From: Deltaproteobacteria bacterium
GTDB lineage: Bacteria > Myxococcota > Myxococcia > Myxococcales > 40CM-4-68-19
Direction: 5' to 3'
Length of the DNA stretch: 64,000 bases
Assembly: GCA_025358085.1 (NCBI GenBank)
Contig: JANYKT010000063.1
Coordinates: forward strand, 1 to 64,000
In this document: positions 45,252-52,730 of the stretch, piece after piece
Layout of the letters: each line of letters starts with the position of its first letter
Position numbering within the stretch: the stretch's first letter is position 1
The notes under the pieces: model-generated
Databases searched by the model: none
What the model was told of the DNA's origin: nothing
Seen by the model: only the letters and a program-made list of their open reading frames with translations
Program-made: the position numbers and the translations under genes

Positions 45252-45716
45252 TTGAAGACGACGATCGACGGAGTTGCCGGGCTGAAGGCGCTGGTGGGCA
45301 GGGAGCTGGGGAAGAGCGAATGGCGGTCGATGACCTACGACGCCATCGTCAAATTCGCCGACGCGACCGGCGACCACCAGTGGATCCATGTGGACCGCGA
45401 GCGCATCCAGCGCGAGTCGCCCTTCGGCGCGCCGGTCGCGCACGGCTACTTCTCGCTGTCGCTGATCGCCGGCCTTTTCTTCGAGCTGGTCGAGGTGAAG
45501 AACTTCGCGATGGTCATCAACTACGGGCTCAATAAGGTGCGCTTTCCGGCGCCGCTGAAGGAGGGCCAGAAGTATCGGCTTTCGGTGAAGCTGCTCGAGG
45601 TCAAAGAGGCTGGCAGCGCGTTGGAAGGCATTCTGACGGCGAGCATCGAGATCGAGGGCGAGGCGAAGCCCGCGTGCGCCGCCGAGCTGGTGTTTCGCTT
45701 CCTTGGCGGCGCTTAG
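45252..45716 (+). CDS. MaoC-like enoyl hydratase
   Basis: A 154-residue single-hotdog hydratase of the R-specific type. The catalytic Asp/His segment is FADATGDHQWIHVD, followed by APVAHGYFSLSLIAG. It hydrates 2-enoyl-CoA in fatty-acid or polyhydroxyalkanoate metabolism. TTG 45252 is chosen because GAGGAGG lies 6-9 bases upstream. A GC-rich imperfect hairpin (CGCGCCC/GGGCGCG) follows about 35 bases after the stop but lacks a T-run. Confidence 0.9.
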   Translation: MKTTIDGVAGLKALVGRELGKSEWRSMTYDAIVKFADATGDHQWIHVDRERIQRESPFGAPVAHGYFSLSLIAGLFFELVEVKNFAMVINYGLNKVRFPAPLKEGQKYRLSVKLLEVKEAGSALEGILTASIEIEGEAKPACAAELVFRFLGGA

Positions 45717-45873: not shown

Positions 45874-45981
45874 TTGTCTCAAGGCGGGTTCTGCTCCGGG
45901 ACCAGTCGCATTCCGCGGTCCGGCTTTCCTCGAAGTTGCGCGGCTCCTCCGCCGGGAGCAGCGCGAGACAAGGTGATCTCG

Positions 45982-47811
45982 GTGCCTGGGCAGAAGGTCG
46001 AGCTCGACCCACAAGCGTTCGAGTCAGGGACCTCGAGGCCGCTCAAGACGGGCGCCGAGTTCATCCTCGTGCTGCCGAAACACCGCTTCGTCTATCGCCA
46101 CTGGGACAAGGAAAACTATCTTCCGGGCGAAGAGGGAGAGCTGATCCTCGAGGGCAAGGGCCTCGGGAAGAAGCCCTACGACTTCATCATCGAGACGTCC
46201 GAAAACGAGGACGGCCCCTGGCTGCCGGTCAAGACGGTCAAGGCCAACGTCGATGGTGACAAGGCAACCGCGAAGTTCATTTTTCCCAAGCTTGAGCCCA
46301 AGGGCCACCTCACCAAAGCCGAGTGGAAGAGGCTCAAGGCAAAGCCCGAGGAACGTCTCGGCATGCACGTCGAGGCCAGTGGCTACGAAGGCGGCGGTCT
46401 CGACTTCGTGGTCGAAAAACAGGGCGCGGATGGCGAGTGGCATCCGTACTCGCGCTGGCAAGGAAACATCGACGCAGGCAAGGCCGATACGGTTTTCGCC
46501 ATCCCGGCAGGCAAGGCGAAGCCGGCGAAAAATCCGGACGCCAGGGTTGTCGAGCTGGCGTTCGATGGCGACCCGGAGGCGGGCGGCGTCGCCTGGCTTC
46601 TCGCGGAGACGAGCCATCTCGATTCAGAACAGATGAAGTTCGTCCTTGAGCGTGCCGACGAAAACGGCGACTGGCGCGAGCTCGGCGAGGGGGTCTCTAC
46701 CGTCAAGGATGGCGAGGCGCGCAACGGCATCAATGTTCCTGTGATCGTGTGCCAGGCCGGCAATCCCGATCCCGGCGGTATGGTGCCCATCGGGTTCAGC
46801 CACCCCCTCTACCGCAGGGGAGAGGAGCTGGTGGTTTACGTGGACCCAGGCTGGCTCAAGGGCGAGCAGTTCGAGGTTACGCTCGAGCGGCGAGTGATGA
46901 AGGGCAGCGAGCCTTGGAAGGAAGTCGCGGTCGTCGACGCGGAGCCGGTGAGTCCCACGGGCGCGGGCGGGGCGGGCGGCGGCGAGTCTGGCAGCGGCGG
47001 AACGGGCAGCGGCGAGTCTGGCAGCGGCGGAACGGGCAGCGGCGGAACGGGCAGCGGCGGAACTGGCAGCGGCGGGTCTGGCAGCGGCGGAACAGGCAGC
47101 GGCGGAACCGGTAGCGGCGGCTCTGGCAGCGGCGGAACCGGCAGCGGCGGAACTGGCAGCGGCGGAACTGGCAGCGGCGGAACTGGCAGCGGCGGAACCG
47201 GCAGCGGTGGAACTGGCAGCGGCGGAACCGGCAGCGGTGGAACCGGCAGCGGCGGAACCGGCAGCGGTGGAACCGGCAGCGGCGGCTCTGGCAGCGGCGG
47301 GACTGGCAGCGGCGGGACTGGCAGCGGCGGCGGTCCCGGCGGCGCAAGCAGCGGCGGCGGAACTGGCAGCGGCGGCGGTCCGGGCGGCGCAAGCAGTGGC
47401 GGCGGCGCGGGCGGAAGCGGCTCGGACGGATCCGGTGGCGGAACTGGCGGAAGCACGGGCTCCGGCGGAACAGGCGGACCCGGTGGCGGCAGCGCGGGGG
47501 CTACTGGCAGCGGAGCCGGCGGCGGCAGCGCGGGGGCTACTGGCAGCGGAGCCGGTGGCGGCAGCGCGGGGGCTACTGGCAGCGGAACCGGCGGCGCGGC
47601 GGGCGGCGCTGGCGCGGCGGCCTCGTCGGGCGCCGGCGGAACAGGTGCCAAAGGCGGCGGCCTTTCGGGGCTGGAGATCGGCGGTATCGTCGCAGGCGCA
47701 GGCGCGCTGGGCGCGGTCACCGCGGCGAGCGTGTCGGCTGCGGGGGATGCCAAGAAGACGGCCGACGACGCCGAAAAGAACGGCGACGACAGTGCCAAGG
47801 TCGAGGAATAG
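45982..47811 (+). CDS. Multimodular beta-sandwich protein with GSGGT-repeat linker and hydrophobic C-terminal segment
   Basis: 609 residues from GTG 45982, with AAGG 8 bases upstream (GTG 45973 is also possible). Residues 1-325 hold about four modules of 70-85 residues with a shared pattern: GEEGELILEGKG..., RLGMHVEASGYEGGGL..., VVELAFDGDPEAGG... and GEELVVYVDPGWLKGE.... Each is followed by a W or charged strand, as in Ig-like sandwiches. Then come about 23 GSGGT-type 5-residue repeats, two 15-residue Gly-rich repeats and three GGGSAGATGSG units. A hydrophobic segment (IGGIVAGAGALGAVTA) and an acidic tail end the chain. There is no signal peptide. The layout suggests a reader or binding head on a flexible tether. 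The family is unknown; linkage to the repeat protein 67 bases downstream is the best clue. Confidence 0.75.
   Translation: MPGQKVELDPQAFESGTSRPLKTGAEFILVLPKHRFVYRHWDKENYLPGEEGELILEGKGLGKKPYDFIIETSENEDGPWLPVKTVKANVDGDKATAKFIFPKLEPKGHLTKAEWKRLKAKPEERLGMHVEASGYEGGGLDFVVEKQGADGEWHPYSRWQGNIDAGKADTVFAIPAGKAKPAKNPDARVVELAFDGDPEAGGVAWLLAETSHLDSEQMKFVLERADENGDWRELGEGVSTVKDGEARNGINVPVIVCQAGNPDPGGMVPIGFSHPLYRRGEELVVYVDPGWLKGEQFEVTLERRVMKGSEPWKEVAVVDAEPVSPTGAGGAGGGESGSGGTGSGESGSGGTGSGGTGSGGTGSGGSGSGGTGSGGTGSGGSGSGGTGSGGTGSGGTGSGGTGSGGTGSGGTGSGGTGSGGTGSGGTGSGGTGSGGSGSGGTGSGGTGSGGGPGGASSGGGTGSGGGPGGASSGGGAGGSGSDGSGGGTGGSTGSGGTGGPGGGSAGATGSGAGGGSAGATGSGAGGGSAGATGSGTGGAAGGAGAAASSGAGGTGAKGGGLSGLEIGGIVAGAGALGAVTAASVSAAGDAKKTADDAEKNGDDSAKVEE
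46981..47335 (+). repeat. 15-bp tandem repeat encoding GSGGT, about 23 copies
   Basis: The unit is GGCAGCGGCGGAACC with third-base variants (aact, aacg) and occasional GSGGS or GSGES. The repeats keep the reading frame. Further downstream, 36-bp units encoding GGGSAGATGSGA occur three times (about 47482-47590). Such tracts are prone to slippage and should vary in copy number between strains. Confidence 0.9.
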
Positions 47812-47878
47812 CAGCACCCGATTTGACACCCGGTGCGCCGATGACGCGCACTCAAACCGGTACCGAAGGAGCCTTCCG

Positions 47879-50800
47879 ATGGCTGACGAAAAAGAACCGA
47901 AGAGCGACGATTCCGAGCCCGTGCAGCTCTACCGTTTCAAGGTCCGCACGGCCGATGGCCGCGAAATGACCAGCGCAGTCGCGGTGGTGGACCCGAACGC
48001 TGACGGGGACCTGGAGAACGACGCCGGCAATTCCCTCGAAGAACTCGAGGAGAAGCATAAGGCGGAAGGGAAGGAGCATGACTCCGATATCGCCAGTTGG
48101 CACAAGGACGAGCGGGAGGTCCACATGGACGACCTCGACGCGCACCATGGCGTCGAGACGGAGCGGCACGACGCTCATCTGGATAGCCAACACGAGACCG
48201 AAATCAAAAGTGACGAGCAGCAGCTCGACGGGAGCCATGCCGAGGAACTCGATCAGCACGAAACCCAGCTCGATGACGCGCACGAGAAGGAGCGCGAGCG
48301 CCTCGAGGTCGACCTTGACGACAAGCATCGCGACGAGCACGTGGCGGCTCACACGGAGCTGGACAAGAAGCACAACGGTGAGTTGGACCAGCACTCGAAT
48401 GAATCACTGAAGGCGCTGGAGGAGGAGCTGAAGAAGCAGGCGAGTCAGCTTGACGGCAAGCATCTGGAGGAACTCGCCAAGGCGGACAACGAGCTCATCG
48501 CGAAGCACCACGAGGAGCTGAAGAAGACCGAGGCCGAACTCGATCAGGCTTTTGACAAGTCCCACCACGAGGCCTTGACCGAGCTGGAGAAGAAGCACGT
48601 CGAGGAGCTGTCGAAGCAGGAAGAGGAGCTCGAGAAGCACCTCCACGAAGAGGTGCAACGGGCCCACGAGGAGCTGTCGCTCAAGCACAAGGAAGAAGAA
48701 GTCGAGCTCGAGAAGCAGCACGACGCCTCGCTTCTCGAAGCCCTCAAGAAGCATGACGAAGAAGGCGAGAAGGCCCTGACGGGGCGCCTCCACGAATTGG
48801 CTACGGGAATGGAGAAAAGGCTTGCGGAGGAACTCGCGAAGCTGAACCTGGATCACGACGGCAAGCTCGCCGGCGAGCTGAAGAAGCTCGAAGAAGAGGC
48901 AGAGAAGAAGCTTGAGGAGGCTCTCAAGAAGCACGACGAGGAGGGCGAGAAACTCCTGGCCGAGGAACTGAAGAAGCACGAGGAGGAGGGGGAGAAAGTA
49001 CTGGGCGATGAGCTGAAGAAGCTCGAAGACGAGACTGAGAAGGATCTCCAGGAGGAGTTGAAGAGCGCGACGGAGGAGCACGACAAGGAAGCCGAAGAGG
49101 AAGTGAACAAGAGCGACGAAGAGCTCGAAAAGGAGGAGCAGGAAGAGGCGGACAAGGACGACAGCGAGGCCCAGAAACAGGAGGACGAAGAGGCCGCCAA
49201 GGACGACGCCGAAGACGACAAGGCGCAGCAGGACGAAGAGCAGAAGGCCGAAGCCGAGGAAGAGAAGACCGCTGCTGATGAAGCCGCCAAAGCTGGCGCC
49301 GAGGCCGACCGGAAGGCCGACGAAGAGGCGAAGAAGGCCGAGGACGAGGCTGACAAAATCGCGGAGGACGAGGCAAAGAAGGCCGAGGACGACGCGCAGA
49401 AGGCCGCCGACGACGAGGCGGCCAAGCAGGAGCAGGACGCCGAAAAACAGTCGCAGGACGAGGTCAGCAAGCAGGAAAGCGACATCGACCAGCAGCACGC
49501 CGACGACGAGAACAAGCAGACCACCGACGCCGACGGCACGCACACCGACGACGAGCACAATCAGCTGAACGACATCTCCGGCCAGGAAGCGGGCGAGCTG
49601 CAGAAAGCCGATGCGGACAACGCGGACAAGCCGCAGGACGTGCGGACCCAGGCGTTCGACGCCATTCGCAAGAAGTTCAACGAACTGCGAATCAAGGTTC
49701 GCGACGAGATCAAGAAAAAGCTTGCGGAGGCGAAGACGAAGGTCCGCGAAGAGATCCGCAAGAAGATCGCCGAGGCCAAGAAGAAGGCCCGCGAGGAGGC
49801 GCTGAAGAAGTTGCTTGAGCTGAAGCAGAAGATTCGTGACGTGGCCAAGAAGAAGGCTGCCGAGGCTCGCAAGAAGGCGCGCGAGGAGGCGCGGAAGAAG
49901 GCCGCGGAAAAGAAGAAGCAGCTACGCGAGGAGCAGCAGAAGAAGTGCGCTGAAGCGAAAAAGAAGCGCGCGGAGGAGCAGCAGAAGAAGCGCGCCGAGC
50001 AAAAGGCGAAGCGGAAGGAGGAGGTGCGCAAGAAGAACGTTGAAGCGCGGAAGAAGAAGGCCGACGCGCGCAAGAAGAAGCACGCTGACGCGCGGAAGAA
50101 GAAGGCCGACGAGCGGAAGAAGAAGGCCGCCGACAAGAAGAAAGCGAAGGCGGAGGAGATTCGCAAGAAGCATCACGAGAAGCACGCCAAAAAGAAGGCG
50201 GAGATCCACCAGAAGCACCACGAAAAGCATCACGGCAAGAAGAAGGACATTCACCAGAAGCACCACGACGCGCACCAGCAGAAGACGCACGAGATGCGCG
50301 AGAAGCATCACCAGGCGCACAAGCAGAAGCGCGACGAGCACCACAAGAAGCACCAGGAAGAGCACCACAAGAAGAAGACGGAACTTCACGAGAAGCACCA
50401 CAAGGAGCACCAACAGAAGCGCGGCGAGCTTCACCAGAAGCACCGCGACGAGCACAGCCAGAAGCGCGGCGAGCTTCACCAGAAGCACCGCGACGAGCAC
50501 CACCAGAAGAAGCAGGAGGTGGACGGGAAACACCGCGAAGAGCACCACCAGAAGAAGCACGAGCTCCAGCAGAAGCATCACGAGCAGAAGCAGAAGAAGT
50601 CACACGAGCTCCACCAGAAGCACGACGAGCACACGCAGAAGAAGATCGCGGAGCACAAGCAGCGGCATCACGAGGAACGGCAGAAGAAGCAACACGAGGT
50701 CCGTCAGAAGCAACACGAGCAGAGGCAGAAGAAGCACGCCGATCTGCACAAGACGCACCACGAAGAGAAGCAGAAGCACCAGGGGAAGCTGCGCAAGGAG

Positions 50801-51301
50801 CATCACGAGGAGCACCAGAAGAAGCGCGTCGACGTGCACCAGAAGCACTTTGAACAGCGCAAGACGAAGGAGACCGACCTCCGCAAAAAGCACCAGAAAG
50901 AGAAGCACGAGAAGGTGACGCAATTGCACGGAGAGCACCACGAGAAGAAGCAAAAGCACCTCGCGGAGCACAGGCAGAAGCACGTTGAGAACAAGAAGAC
51001 CCATCTGGACGGCGTGAAGCAGAAGCAGGGCGACCAGAAGCAGAAGCACCTCGATGAGGTGAGGAAGAAGCAGGGCGAATCGAAGCAGAGGCAGCAGGAT
51101 GAGCTGCAGAAGCGCCAGGCGCAGGACAAGAAGGGCAAGGGCGACGCGCTCAAGAAGAGCCAGGGTGCTGAGGCGAAGCGACGCCAGGACACCCTCGGGC
51201 GCCAGCAGAAAGCGGAGCACGCGCGGCACAAGGAAGTGCTGCAGAAAAAGCAGACCCGGCAGTCCGCGCCGCGTCGCGCAACTGGCGGCCGGCACAAATA
51301 G
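47879..51301 (+). CDS. Giant 15-residue (pentadecad) repeat coiled-coil protein with opposite-charge halves
   Basis: 1140 residues from ATG 47879, with GAAGGAG 8 bases upstream. Residues 1-55 form a small beta domain (VQLYRFKVRTADGREMTSAV). Residues 56-1120 are 71 consecutive units of exactly 15 residues with no insertion or deletion, for example LEKKHVEELSKQEEE and LHQKHRDEHHQKKQE. The arithmetic closes: 55 + 71x15 + 20 = 1140. Units 1-35 are mostly acidic, unit 36 (NADKPQDVRTQAFDA) holds the only Pro of the array, and units 37-71 are basic. Core positions 1, 5, 8/9 and 12 carry Leu/Ile/Ala, replaced by His from about unit 48. One Cys (unit 43) and one Trp (unit 2) are seen. No signal peptide. 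The function is unknown; a filament, tether or long antiparallel hairpin is inferred. Confidence 0.85.
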   Translation: MADEKEPKSDDSEPVQLYRFKVRTADGREMTSAVAVVDPNADGDLENDAGNSLEELEEKHKAEGKEHDSDIASWHKDEREVHMDDLDAHHGVETERHDAHLDSQHETEIKSDEQQLDGSHAEELDQHETQLDDAHEKERERLEVDLDDKHRDEHVAAHTELDKKHNGELDQHSNESLKALEEELKKQASQLDGKHLEELAKADNELIAKHHEELKKTEAELDQAFDKSHHEALTELEKKHVEELSKQEEELEKHLHEEVQRAHEELSLKHKEEEVELEKQHDASLLEALKKHDEEGEKALTGRLHELATGMEKRLAEELAKLNLDHDGKLAGELKKLEEEAEKKLEEALKKHDEEGEKLLAEELKKHEEEGEKVLGDELKKLEDETEKDLQEELKSATEEHDKEAEEEVNKSDEELEKEEQEEADKDDSEAQKQEDEEAAKDDAEDDKAQQDEEQKAEAEEEKTAADEAAKAGAEADRKADEEAKKAEDEADKIAEDEAKKAEDDAQKAADDEAAKQEQDAEKQSQDEVSKQESDIDQQHADDENKQTTDADGTHTDDEHNQLNDISGQEAGELQKADADNADKPQDVRTQAFDAIRKKFNELRIKVRDEIKKKLAEAKTKVREEIRKKIAEAKKKAREEALKKLLELKQKIRDVAKKKAAEARKKAREEARKKAAEKKKQLREEQQKKCAEAKKKRAEEQQKKRAEQKAKRKEEVRKKNVEARKKKADARKKKHADARKKKADERKKKAADKKKAKAEEIRKKHHEKHAKKKAEIHQKHHEKHHGKKKDIHQKHHDAHQQKTHEMREKHHQAHKQKRDEHHKKHQEEHHKKKTELHEKHHKEHQQKRGELHQKHRDEHSQKRGELHQKHRDEHHQKKQEVDGKHREEHHQKKHELQQKHHEQKQKKSHELHQKHDEHTQKKIAEHKQRHHEERQKKQHEVRQKQHEQRQKKHADLHKTHHEEKQKHQGKLRKEHHEEHQKKRVDVHQKHFEQRKTKETDLRKKHQKEKHEKVTQLHGEHHEKKQKHLAEHRQKHVENKKTHLDGVKQKQGDQKQKHLDEVRKKQGESKQRQQDELQKRQAQDKKGKGDALKKSQGAEAKRRQDTLGRQQKAEHARHKEVLQKKQTRQSAPRRATGGRHK
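48044..51238 (+). repeat. 71-copy 45-bp coding repeat array (15 residues per unit)
   Basis: The reading-frame period of 45 bp holds from 48044 to 51238 without a single indel. Most units have diverged at the DNA level. Copies at 50417-50461 and 50462-50506 differ at only 2 of 45 bases, showing growth by unit duplication. The consensus in the basic half is close to L-H-Q-K-H-H-E-E-H-Q-K-K-x-x-E. Confidence 0.88.
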
Positions 51302-51383: not shown

Positions 51384-52730
51384 GTGCGCTACCGCGAGTA
51401 CAACTTCGACGGGCTGGTGGGGCCGACGCACAACTACGCCGGTCTTTCGCGCGGCAACGTGGCCTCGCTGACCCATGCAGGGCAGGCCGCCAATCCGCGG
51501 CGGGCCGCGCTGCAAGGGCTCGAGAAGATGCGGCTGGTGGCCTCACTCGGCGTGGGGCAGGCAGTGCTTCCGCCGCAAGAGCGCCCGTCGTTGCGGACCC
51601 TGCGCCGGCTGGGCTTTCGAGGATCGGACGAGGAGGTCCTCGCGCAGGCGGCAAGCGATCCGGATTCGCGCGATCAGCTTCTGCGCCTCACCTCGAGCGC
51701 GGCGGCCATGTGGACCGCGAACGCCGCGACTTGCGTCCCCTCCTGCGACAGCGAGGACGCAAGGCTGCACTTGATCCCCGCGAACCTCACGGCGATGTTT
51801 CACCGTGCGCTCGAGGCCGGGACGACGACCACCGTTCTGCGCAGGATCTTCGCCGACCCGGCGCGCTTCGCGGTTCATGATCCGCTGCCGGGCGGCGCGC
51901 AATTCTCTGATGAGGGCGCGGCCAATCACACCCGGCTGTCTGCCGAAGGCGCAAAAGGAGTGCACCTCTTCGCCTGGGGTCGCCGGGCCTTCGGCGGTCC
52001 CGCGCCTGCCGGTGAGCCGCAACGCTGGCCGGCGCGGCAGACGCTCGAGTCTTCGCAGGCGCTGGCGCGACTCGGTCGCGTGGCACCGGCGCAGGCGCTT
52101 TTTCCCCAGCAGCATCCGGCAGGCATCGACGCGGGGGCCTTCCACACCGACGTGCTCGCGGTCGGCACCGGCAACCTGTTGCTCCTGCATCAACTGGCGT
52201 TCGTCGATCACGAGGCGCTCCTTGCCCGGCTGCGCGCACTGGTGCCCGGCTTCACGGCCGTCGTCGCCACCGAAGAGGAGTTGCCCGTGAGCGCGGCGAT
52301 CAAGGCCTATCCCTTCAACTCGCAGTTGCTCACGCTGCCCGACGGGAGCATGGCCTTGCTGGCTCCCGACGAATCGCGGCAAGAGCCTCACGCGCGCGCT
52401 TTTCTCGAGCGGCTCCCGGGCGTGAAAATTCACTACCTCGCCCTCGGCGACTCGATGCAGAACGGAGGCGGCCCCGCTTGCCTGCGGCAGCGCATCCTGC
52501 TCTCCGACGACGAGCGCGCGGCAGTGACGGCGCGCGTCTTCTGGGACGAGCCGCTGGGGAGCGAGTTGGAGGCGTGGGTCGCGCGGCACTATCGCGACCG
52601 CCTGGTGGGCGACGACCTACGAGACCCGCTGCTGGCGCGCGAGACGCTCACCGCCCTCGATGAGCTGACGCAGATGCTCCAGCTCGGCGCGGTCTACGAT
52701 TTCCAGCGCCTGGACAGCCGGTCTTTCTAA
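51384..52730 (+). CDS. astB: N-succinylarginine dihydrolase
   Basis: A 448-residue protein matching AstB in length and sequence: EYNFDGLVGPTHNYAGLSRGN, MWTANAATCVPSCDSED, NHTRLSAEGAKGVHLFAWGR, GAFHTDVLAVGTGNLLLLHQ and QNGGGPACLRQRI with the catalytic Cys. It hydrolyses N2-succinylarginine to succinylornithine, CO2 and ammonia in the arginine succinyltransferase pathway. No astCADE genes lie nearby. GTG 51384 is chosen because TTG 51366 lies inside the upstream terminator. Confidence 0.95.
   Translation: MRYREYNFDGLVGPTHNYAGLSRGNVASLTHAGQAANPRRAALQGLEKMRLVASLGVGQAVLPPQERPSLRTLRRLGFRGSDEEVLAQAASDPDSRDQLLRLTSSAAAMWTANAATCVPSCDSEDARLHLIPANLTAMFHRALEAGTTTTVLRRIFADPARFAVHDPLPGGAQFSDEGAANHTRLSAEGAKGVHLFAWGRRAFGGPAPAGEPQRWPARQTLESSQALARLGRVAPAQALFPQQHPAGIDAGAFHTDVLAVGTGNLLLLHQLAFVDHEALLARLRALVPGFTAVVATEEELPVSAAIKAYPFNSQLLTLPDGSMALLAPDESRQEPHARAFLERLPGVKIHYLALGDSMQNGGGPACLRQRILLSDDERAAVTARVFWDEPLGSELEAWVARHYRDRLVGDDLRDPLLARETLTALDELTQMLQLGAVYDFQRLDSRSF

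Follow-up and report, generated by a model that had tools for sequence, protein, structure and literature searches.

The window, i.e. the whole 64,000-nt stretch of DNA that was analysed, encodes on its forward strand a protein with a 15-residue period, termed the rod in the following, and an adjacent partner protein. The features of this locus are listed in Table 1, together with related cassettes from other loci. The start codon of the rod gene (ATG at 47879) is preceded by the motif GAAGGAG at 47865-47871, 7 bases upstream. A Pfam search of the 1140-aa rod returned no domain. Neither the rod nor the partner was matched in PHROGs, PADLOC or NCBIfam, no PDB sequence matched the rod, and literature searches found no description of the protein.

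Table 1 Features of the rod locus in the window, and cassettes at other loci that combine Hcp, tag-bearing Hcp and a partner-like Ig protein
Feature	Position (nt)	Strand	Details
MaoC-like gene	45255..45713	+	71% identity (tblastn) to L024 MaoC-like protein; insertion-site anchor
Partner gene	45973..47811	+	612 aa; N-terminal Ig-like beta domains, Gly/Ser/Thr linker, C-terminal TM-like segment IGGIVAGAGALGAVTAASV
Rod gene	47879..51301	+	1140 aa; 15-residue period; acidic arm, then basic arm
N-terminal tag	47879..48013	+	residues 1-45; core EPVQLYRFKVRTADGREMTSAVAVVDP; delimited by alignment of tag-bearing proteins
Pro39	47993..47995	+	N-terminal end of the arm
Acidic arm	47996..49630	+	residues 40-584; net charge about -117
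Hinge unit	49619..49663	+	residues 581-595, NADKPQDVRTQAFDA; Pro585 at 49631-49633; AlphaFold helix break 581-585
Basic arm	49634..51268	+	residues 586-1130; net charge about +88, plus 70 His
C-terminal tail	51269..51298	+	from Pro1131, PRRATGGRHK; G007 counterpart PKKAAGGKHK
AstB gene	51384..52730	+	Pfam AstB, 2.4e-164; insertion-site anchor
Hcp + tag-Hcp cassette	L026 5818-7813		with partner-like Ig protein
Hcp + tag-Hcp cassette	L025 6830-8847		with partner-like Ig protein
Hcp + tag-Hcp cassette	L033 4342-6052		with partner-like Ig protein
Hcp + tag-Hcp cassette	L070 365-2066		with partner-like Ig protein

The Ig-like beta domains of the partner were assigned from a structure model of modest confidence. 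The linker is encoded by a 15-base tandem repeat with 25.9 copies (46988-47375). In Foldseek, the partner model weakly matched a Bacteroides T6SS cargo protein (9jdh, E 0.026; 9jg8, E 0.22), and this was not used as evidence. The partner adjoins the rod gene in two further genomes (G003 and G005). Contigs of G006, G010 and G011 end inside the partner gene, those of G006, G007 and G010 within its linker. In five genomes (G001, G002, G004, G008 and G009), the MaoC-like gene adjoins AstB and both partner and rod are absent at that site, so that the pair looks like a two-gene insertion.

This cassette of partner and rod was found in one Myxococcales family. Strong matches to the N-terminal tag of the rod were likewise restricted to a single family (f1) of the window's order, in genome sets covering the class (147 genomes) and the phylum (195 genomes). 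One marginal match in another genome of the order (G060) falls within a protein that looks unrelated and has motifs of trypsin-like proteases. A contig search with the rod N-terminus gave no match, and a search with five partner proteins gave four records and no further complete rod gene; nine partner proteins are too divergent for alignment-based searching. Where records matching the partner are named, they are MAGs with the label Deltaproteobacteria or Myxococcales; together with genome sizes, these labels suggest that the order is Myxococcales and that the source is mostly soil.

The rod contains prolines at residues 7, 14, 39, 585 and 1131, and Pro585 is thus the only one between residues 40 and 1130. 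As stated in the initial annotation, this lone proline marks the boundary between an acidic and a basic half. When 15-residue units are anchored on the hinge 15-mer (residues 581-595), no unit on either side has the wrong sign: units 1-35 (residues 56-580) are negative in 33 of 35 cases and neutral in two, and units 37-71 (residues 596-1120) are positive in 31 of 35 cases and neutral in four. The charge flip had been placed at the hinge as well, and the running charge indeed reaches its minimum at residue 583, next to Pro585. The balance of charges is imperfect (-117/+88). The distal part of the basic arm (residues 766-1035; 50174-50983) is very rich in histidine, with stretches of the QKHH type, a feature that the G007 rod does not have. 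A pH- or metal-dependent charge of this segment is possible.

The annotated equality of the two halves (35 units each) is reproduced with the hinge anchoring. Since the unit count varies with the array ends chosen, the flanking prolines provide a boundary-free measure of the arms, and they give the same result: 546 residues from Pro39 to Pro585 and 546 from Pro585 to Pro1131. This flanking pair was absent from the initial annotation, which likewise lacked the homologues and the mirrored charge match described below. Four complete rods are available (the window, G007, G003 and G005), which are related and not statistically independent. In the G007 rod (L022 603-3482, 959 aa), the prolines at 40, 495 and 950 are spaced 455/455 and the central one lies at the charge flip; neither unequal halves nor a displaced proline, which the initial annotation had named as signs of an accidental symmetry, is found in this homologue. 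Compared to the window, each of its arms differs by the same 91 residues, for which the repeat alignment is ambiguous as to mirrored positions. The rods of G003 (1170 aa) and G005 (481 aa; arm charges -23/+7) do not have the hinge proline, but their mirror centres (see below) are again located mid-array. With arms of 545 (window), 454 (G007), ~556 (G003) and ~216 residues (G005), equal arm length appears to be kept across relatives of differing size, and exactly so in the window and G007.

Equal length would follow trivially if the halves had arisen by tandem duplication of one arm, with the charge diverging later. In G007, the identity at the half-length lag (0.284) does exceed the mean over lags (0.144), as it does at other lags in the repeat register, but several lags score above lag 455, and in the window the identity at lag 546 (0.097) equals the mean over lags. 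In addition, the charge correlation between the arms is mirrored rather than parallel, and arms of 545, 454, ~556 and ~216 residues would demand repeated coordinated changes. Such an origin is unsupported by the lag identities and is regarded as very improbable.

To compare the arms, net charge was smoothed over 15 residues and read outward from a centre, with centres allowed within 60 residues of the middle. An unrestricted scan was dropped and replaced by this ±60-residue scan, because centres inside one arm capture the contrast between acidic and basic halves. The best mirror centre of the window rod is residue 586 (r -0.55). The corresponding values are 498.5 for G007 (r -0.65; near-equal at 495.5-496), 604 for G003 (r -0.36) and 258 for G005 (r -0.70). 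For G003 and G005, arm ends were set by analogy with the other two rods and centres were taken from the scan. Null distributions came from shuffling 15-mer and 45-mer blocks inside the arms and from rotating or reflecting complete arms; the centre was allowed to shift by up to 3 residues. For the window rod, p is 0.0005 (15-mer blocks), 0.0015 (45-mer blocks) and 0.0015 (rotation/reflection) with 2000 draws per scheme. Across nulls, the four rods give p of 0.0005-0.01, with worst values of 0.0015-0.01; as the proteins are related, these must not be multiplied. In the parallel register, r is about 0 to +0.3 depending on the bin (window and G007).

The matching can be followed in steps of 45 residues outward from the hinge. 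The acidic arm of the window rod reads -11 -11 -10 -18 -11 -6 -5 -7 -6 -6 -13 -11 and the basic arm +8 +11 +11 +15 +6 +5 +2 +5 +5 +6 +5 +8. In G007, the acidic arm reads -8 -11 -12 -9 -9 -3 -3 -6 -10 -13 and the basic arm +9 +10 +13 +9 +7 +3 +3 +5 +5 +7. The arms are thus complementary in the antiparallel and not in the parallel register, a conclusion that is well supported. Regarding the earlier proposal that the opposite halves pair, by folding back or by head-to-tail assembly of different chains, this upholds antiparallel matching and speaks against simple head-to-tail assembly in a parallel register; a pairing within one chain and one between two chains fit the profile equally.

The two-chain arrangement would be an antiparallel homodimer, in which two extended chains run acidic-to-basic around a two-fold axis at Pro585; the resulting rod would be ~164 nm long and carry a tag at either end. 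Such a dimer predicts the same charge mirroring and the same arm equality as a folded single chain. The proline turn and the helix break that AlphaFold places at NADKP (residues 581-585), however, are not needed in a dimer, and self-pairing is easier for a single chain. The homodimer, the main rival of the hairpin, is considered rather unlikely, and the single-chain hairpin is tentatively preferred on account of the proline turn and the predicted helix break.

In almost all quarters of the two arms, hydrophobic periodicity is strongest at 3.75 residues (15/4). Its phase is nearly constant throughout both arms of the window rod, which indicates that there are no skips. In coiled-coil geometry, a period above 3.6 corresponds to right-handed pairing. 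With a rise of 0.15 nm per residue, a helix of 545 residues would be about 82 nm long. An AlphaFold model of residues 466-706, based on an alignment of three sequences (window, G007 and G003), has a mean pLDDT of 86.6 and a pTM of 0.55, with helices at 467-549, 561-580 and 586-705. Besides the break at the hinge, a second break of low confidence is predicted at 549-560. The best VIA matches of this model among solved structures are mostly antiparallel helical hairpins (5xg2, 3g6b, 2ch7, 1qu7, 4ke2). With Z about 10 and rmsd of 7-8 A, values that are usual for long helices, these matches back a hairpin arrangement and carry no information on kinship.

The window rod is very highly charged (~50% D/E/K/R) and weakly hydrophobic, and its basic arm is rich in His. 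Such a composition would also suit a diblock polyampholyte with patterned charge, for the most part disordered or forming condensates, in which the mirror match would amount to a coarse charge balance only. A constant 3.75-residue hydrophobic phase along whole arms, the high predicted helix confidence and arms that match to the residue in two rods of unequal size all argue against this reading, which is held to be improbable.

Taken together, the rod is probably a long antiparallel coiled-coil hairpin of approximately 80 nm. Two helices of ~545 residues (~82 nm) would pair about the proline turn at 581-585 in a right-handed, pentadecad-type arrangement with the 3.75-residue hydrophobic period. 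The ascending acidic and the descending basic arm would be held in one register by their mirror-matched charge, presumably within one chain, and the N-terminal tag would meet the C-terminal tail at the base of the hairpin.

The tag, probably a beta-hairpin docking element, offers a clue to the context of the rod. It is also located N-terminally on a second Hcp protein at G000:C68, G010:C596, G007:C346 and G011:C654, where a tag-free Hcp is always adjacent; G000:C68 belongs to the window's own genome and has two Hcp genes, one of which carries the rod tag. In the cassettes of Table 1, the partner-like Ig protein is encoded before the Hcp pair in L026 and L025 and after it in L033 and L070; the contigs on which it precedes Hcp and tag-Hcp are G000:C68 and G010:C596. 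The tag is found N-terminal to Ig-like domains in L078, L079 and L080, and on G005:C76 a pair of gp19-type tube genes flanks a tag with an Ig-like domain. On G003:C8, a Phage_GPD hub domain is followed by repeats of the partner's Ig-like domain. The shared tag and the Ig-like domain behind a phage hub suggest a link to contractile-injection parts. The simplest reading of these gene associations is that the tag would serve as a docking element and the rod as an accessory of contractile-injection-type parts. Docking via the tag might take place on the Ig-like partner encoded alongside or on tube or hub proteins of the contractile-injection type, and within such an assembly the rod might provide an arm or spacer of fixed length.

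The window's genome (98% complete, 217 contigs) has eCIS genes clustered on C48: two sheaths, tubes, a Pvc16 cap and spike genes. A TssC/VipB-type sheath (VipB) gave no match in this genome or in the other family members searched, including G007. Two orphan Phage_GPD hub proteins of the window's genome (L113 1984-5004 and L114 1483-4371) have C-terminal extensions with Ig-like/CarboxypepD_reg domains or OmpA and amidase. On G003:C24 (L118 6361-19380, continuing into L116), a 4339-aa protein precedes the eCIS cluster; it starts with a phage-hub-like N-terminus, continues with helical repeats over ~3000 residues and changes to Pro/Ala repeats thereafter.

A hairpin could also function as a tape measure or as tube cargo, with its fixed length setting or filling a contractile-injection tube. 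The eCIS cluster of the window's genome and the tag, which is common to Hcp and found beside gp19 tube genes, are compatible with such a role. The rod gene, however, is located on C186, outside that cluster, and G002 and G004 have eCIS sheath and tube genes with no cassette at the usual site. A tape-measure or cargo function is rated as rather unlikely. No PHROG matched the rod at E<=0.01, but phage tail-length families diverge strongly. The most far-reaching version of the hairpin model, a self-registering 'charge zipper' with co-evolving arm lengths that yields a tunable rod and serves via its tag as ruler, arm or cargo of a contractile-injection tube or hub, is speculative and, as a whole, doubtful.

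Equal arms at several sizes would amount to a natural experiment on the way in which repeat proteins coordinate the lengths of two arms. A mirror-encoded charge as the register code of a very long hairpin can be tested directly and would be useful for designing proteins. The tag and the Ig-like domain that are shared among these loci, in turn, suggest that contractile-injection-type proteins of uncultivated Myxococcales have an accessory module not described so far.

Several known systems share single features with the rod. SMC/Rad50 arms are long chains that fold back, as in the hairpin model, and 5xg2, a fragment of an SMC arm, is the top structural match (Z 10.4, rmsd 8.2); the rod, however, has neither ATPase heads (no Pfam domain) nor a hinge domain, and SMC/Rad50 arms differ from its segregated acidic and basic arms and its regular 15-residue period. 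The cytoplasmic part of chemoreceptors (MCP; 3g6b, 2ch7, 1qu7) is likewise an antiparallel helical hairpin, but the rod has no MCP signalling domain, transmembrane receptor part or Pfam match. Maxi, the hyperactive type I antifreeze protein of winter flounder (4ke2), is a long helix folded in half like the rod model; its sequence and composition are unrelated, and an antifreeze role of the rod has no evidence. YadA-type stalks contain pentadecad (15/4) right-handed coiled coils in parallel trimers. They share the 15-residue unit and the 3.75 period with the rod, whose pairing signal is antiparallel in contrast to the parallel stalks. Tube proteins (Hcp/gp19) and hub proteins (VgrG/GPD) of T6SS and eCIS share the rod tag or the Ig-like domain of the partner, but the rod itself contains no tube or hub domain; PADLOC models of known defence systems gave no match. 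As an antiparallel coiled-coil hairpin, the rod would belong to a known kind, and its novelty would lie in the strict segregation of acidic and basic arms, the mirror-matched charge, the pentadecad period, the kept length equality and the tag.
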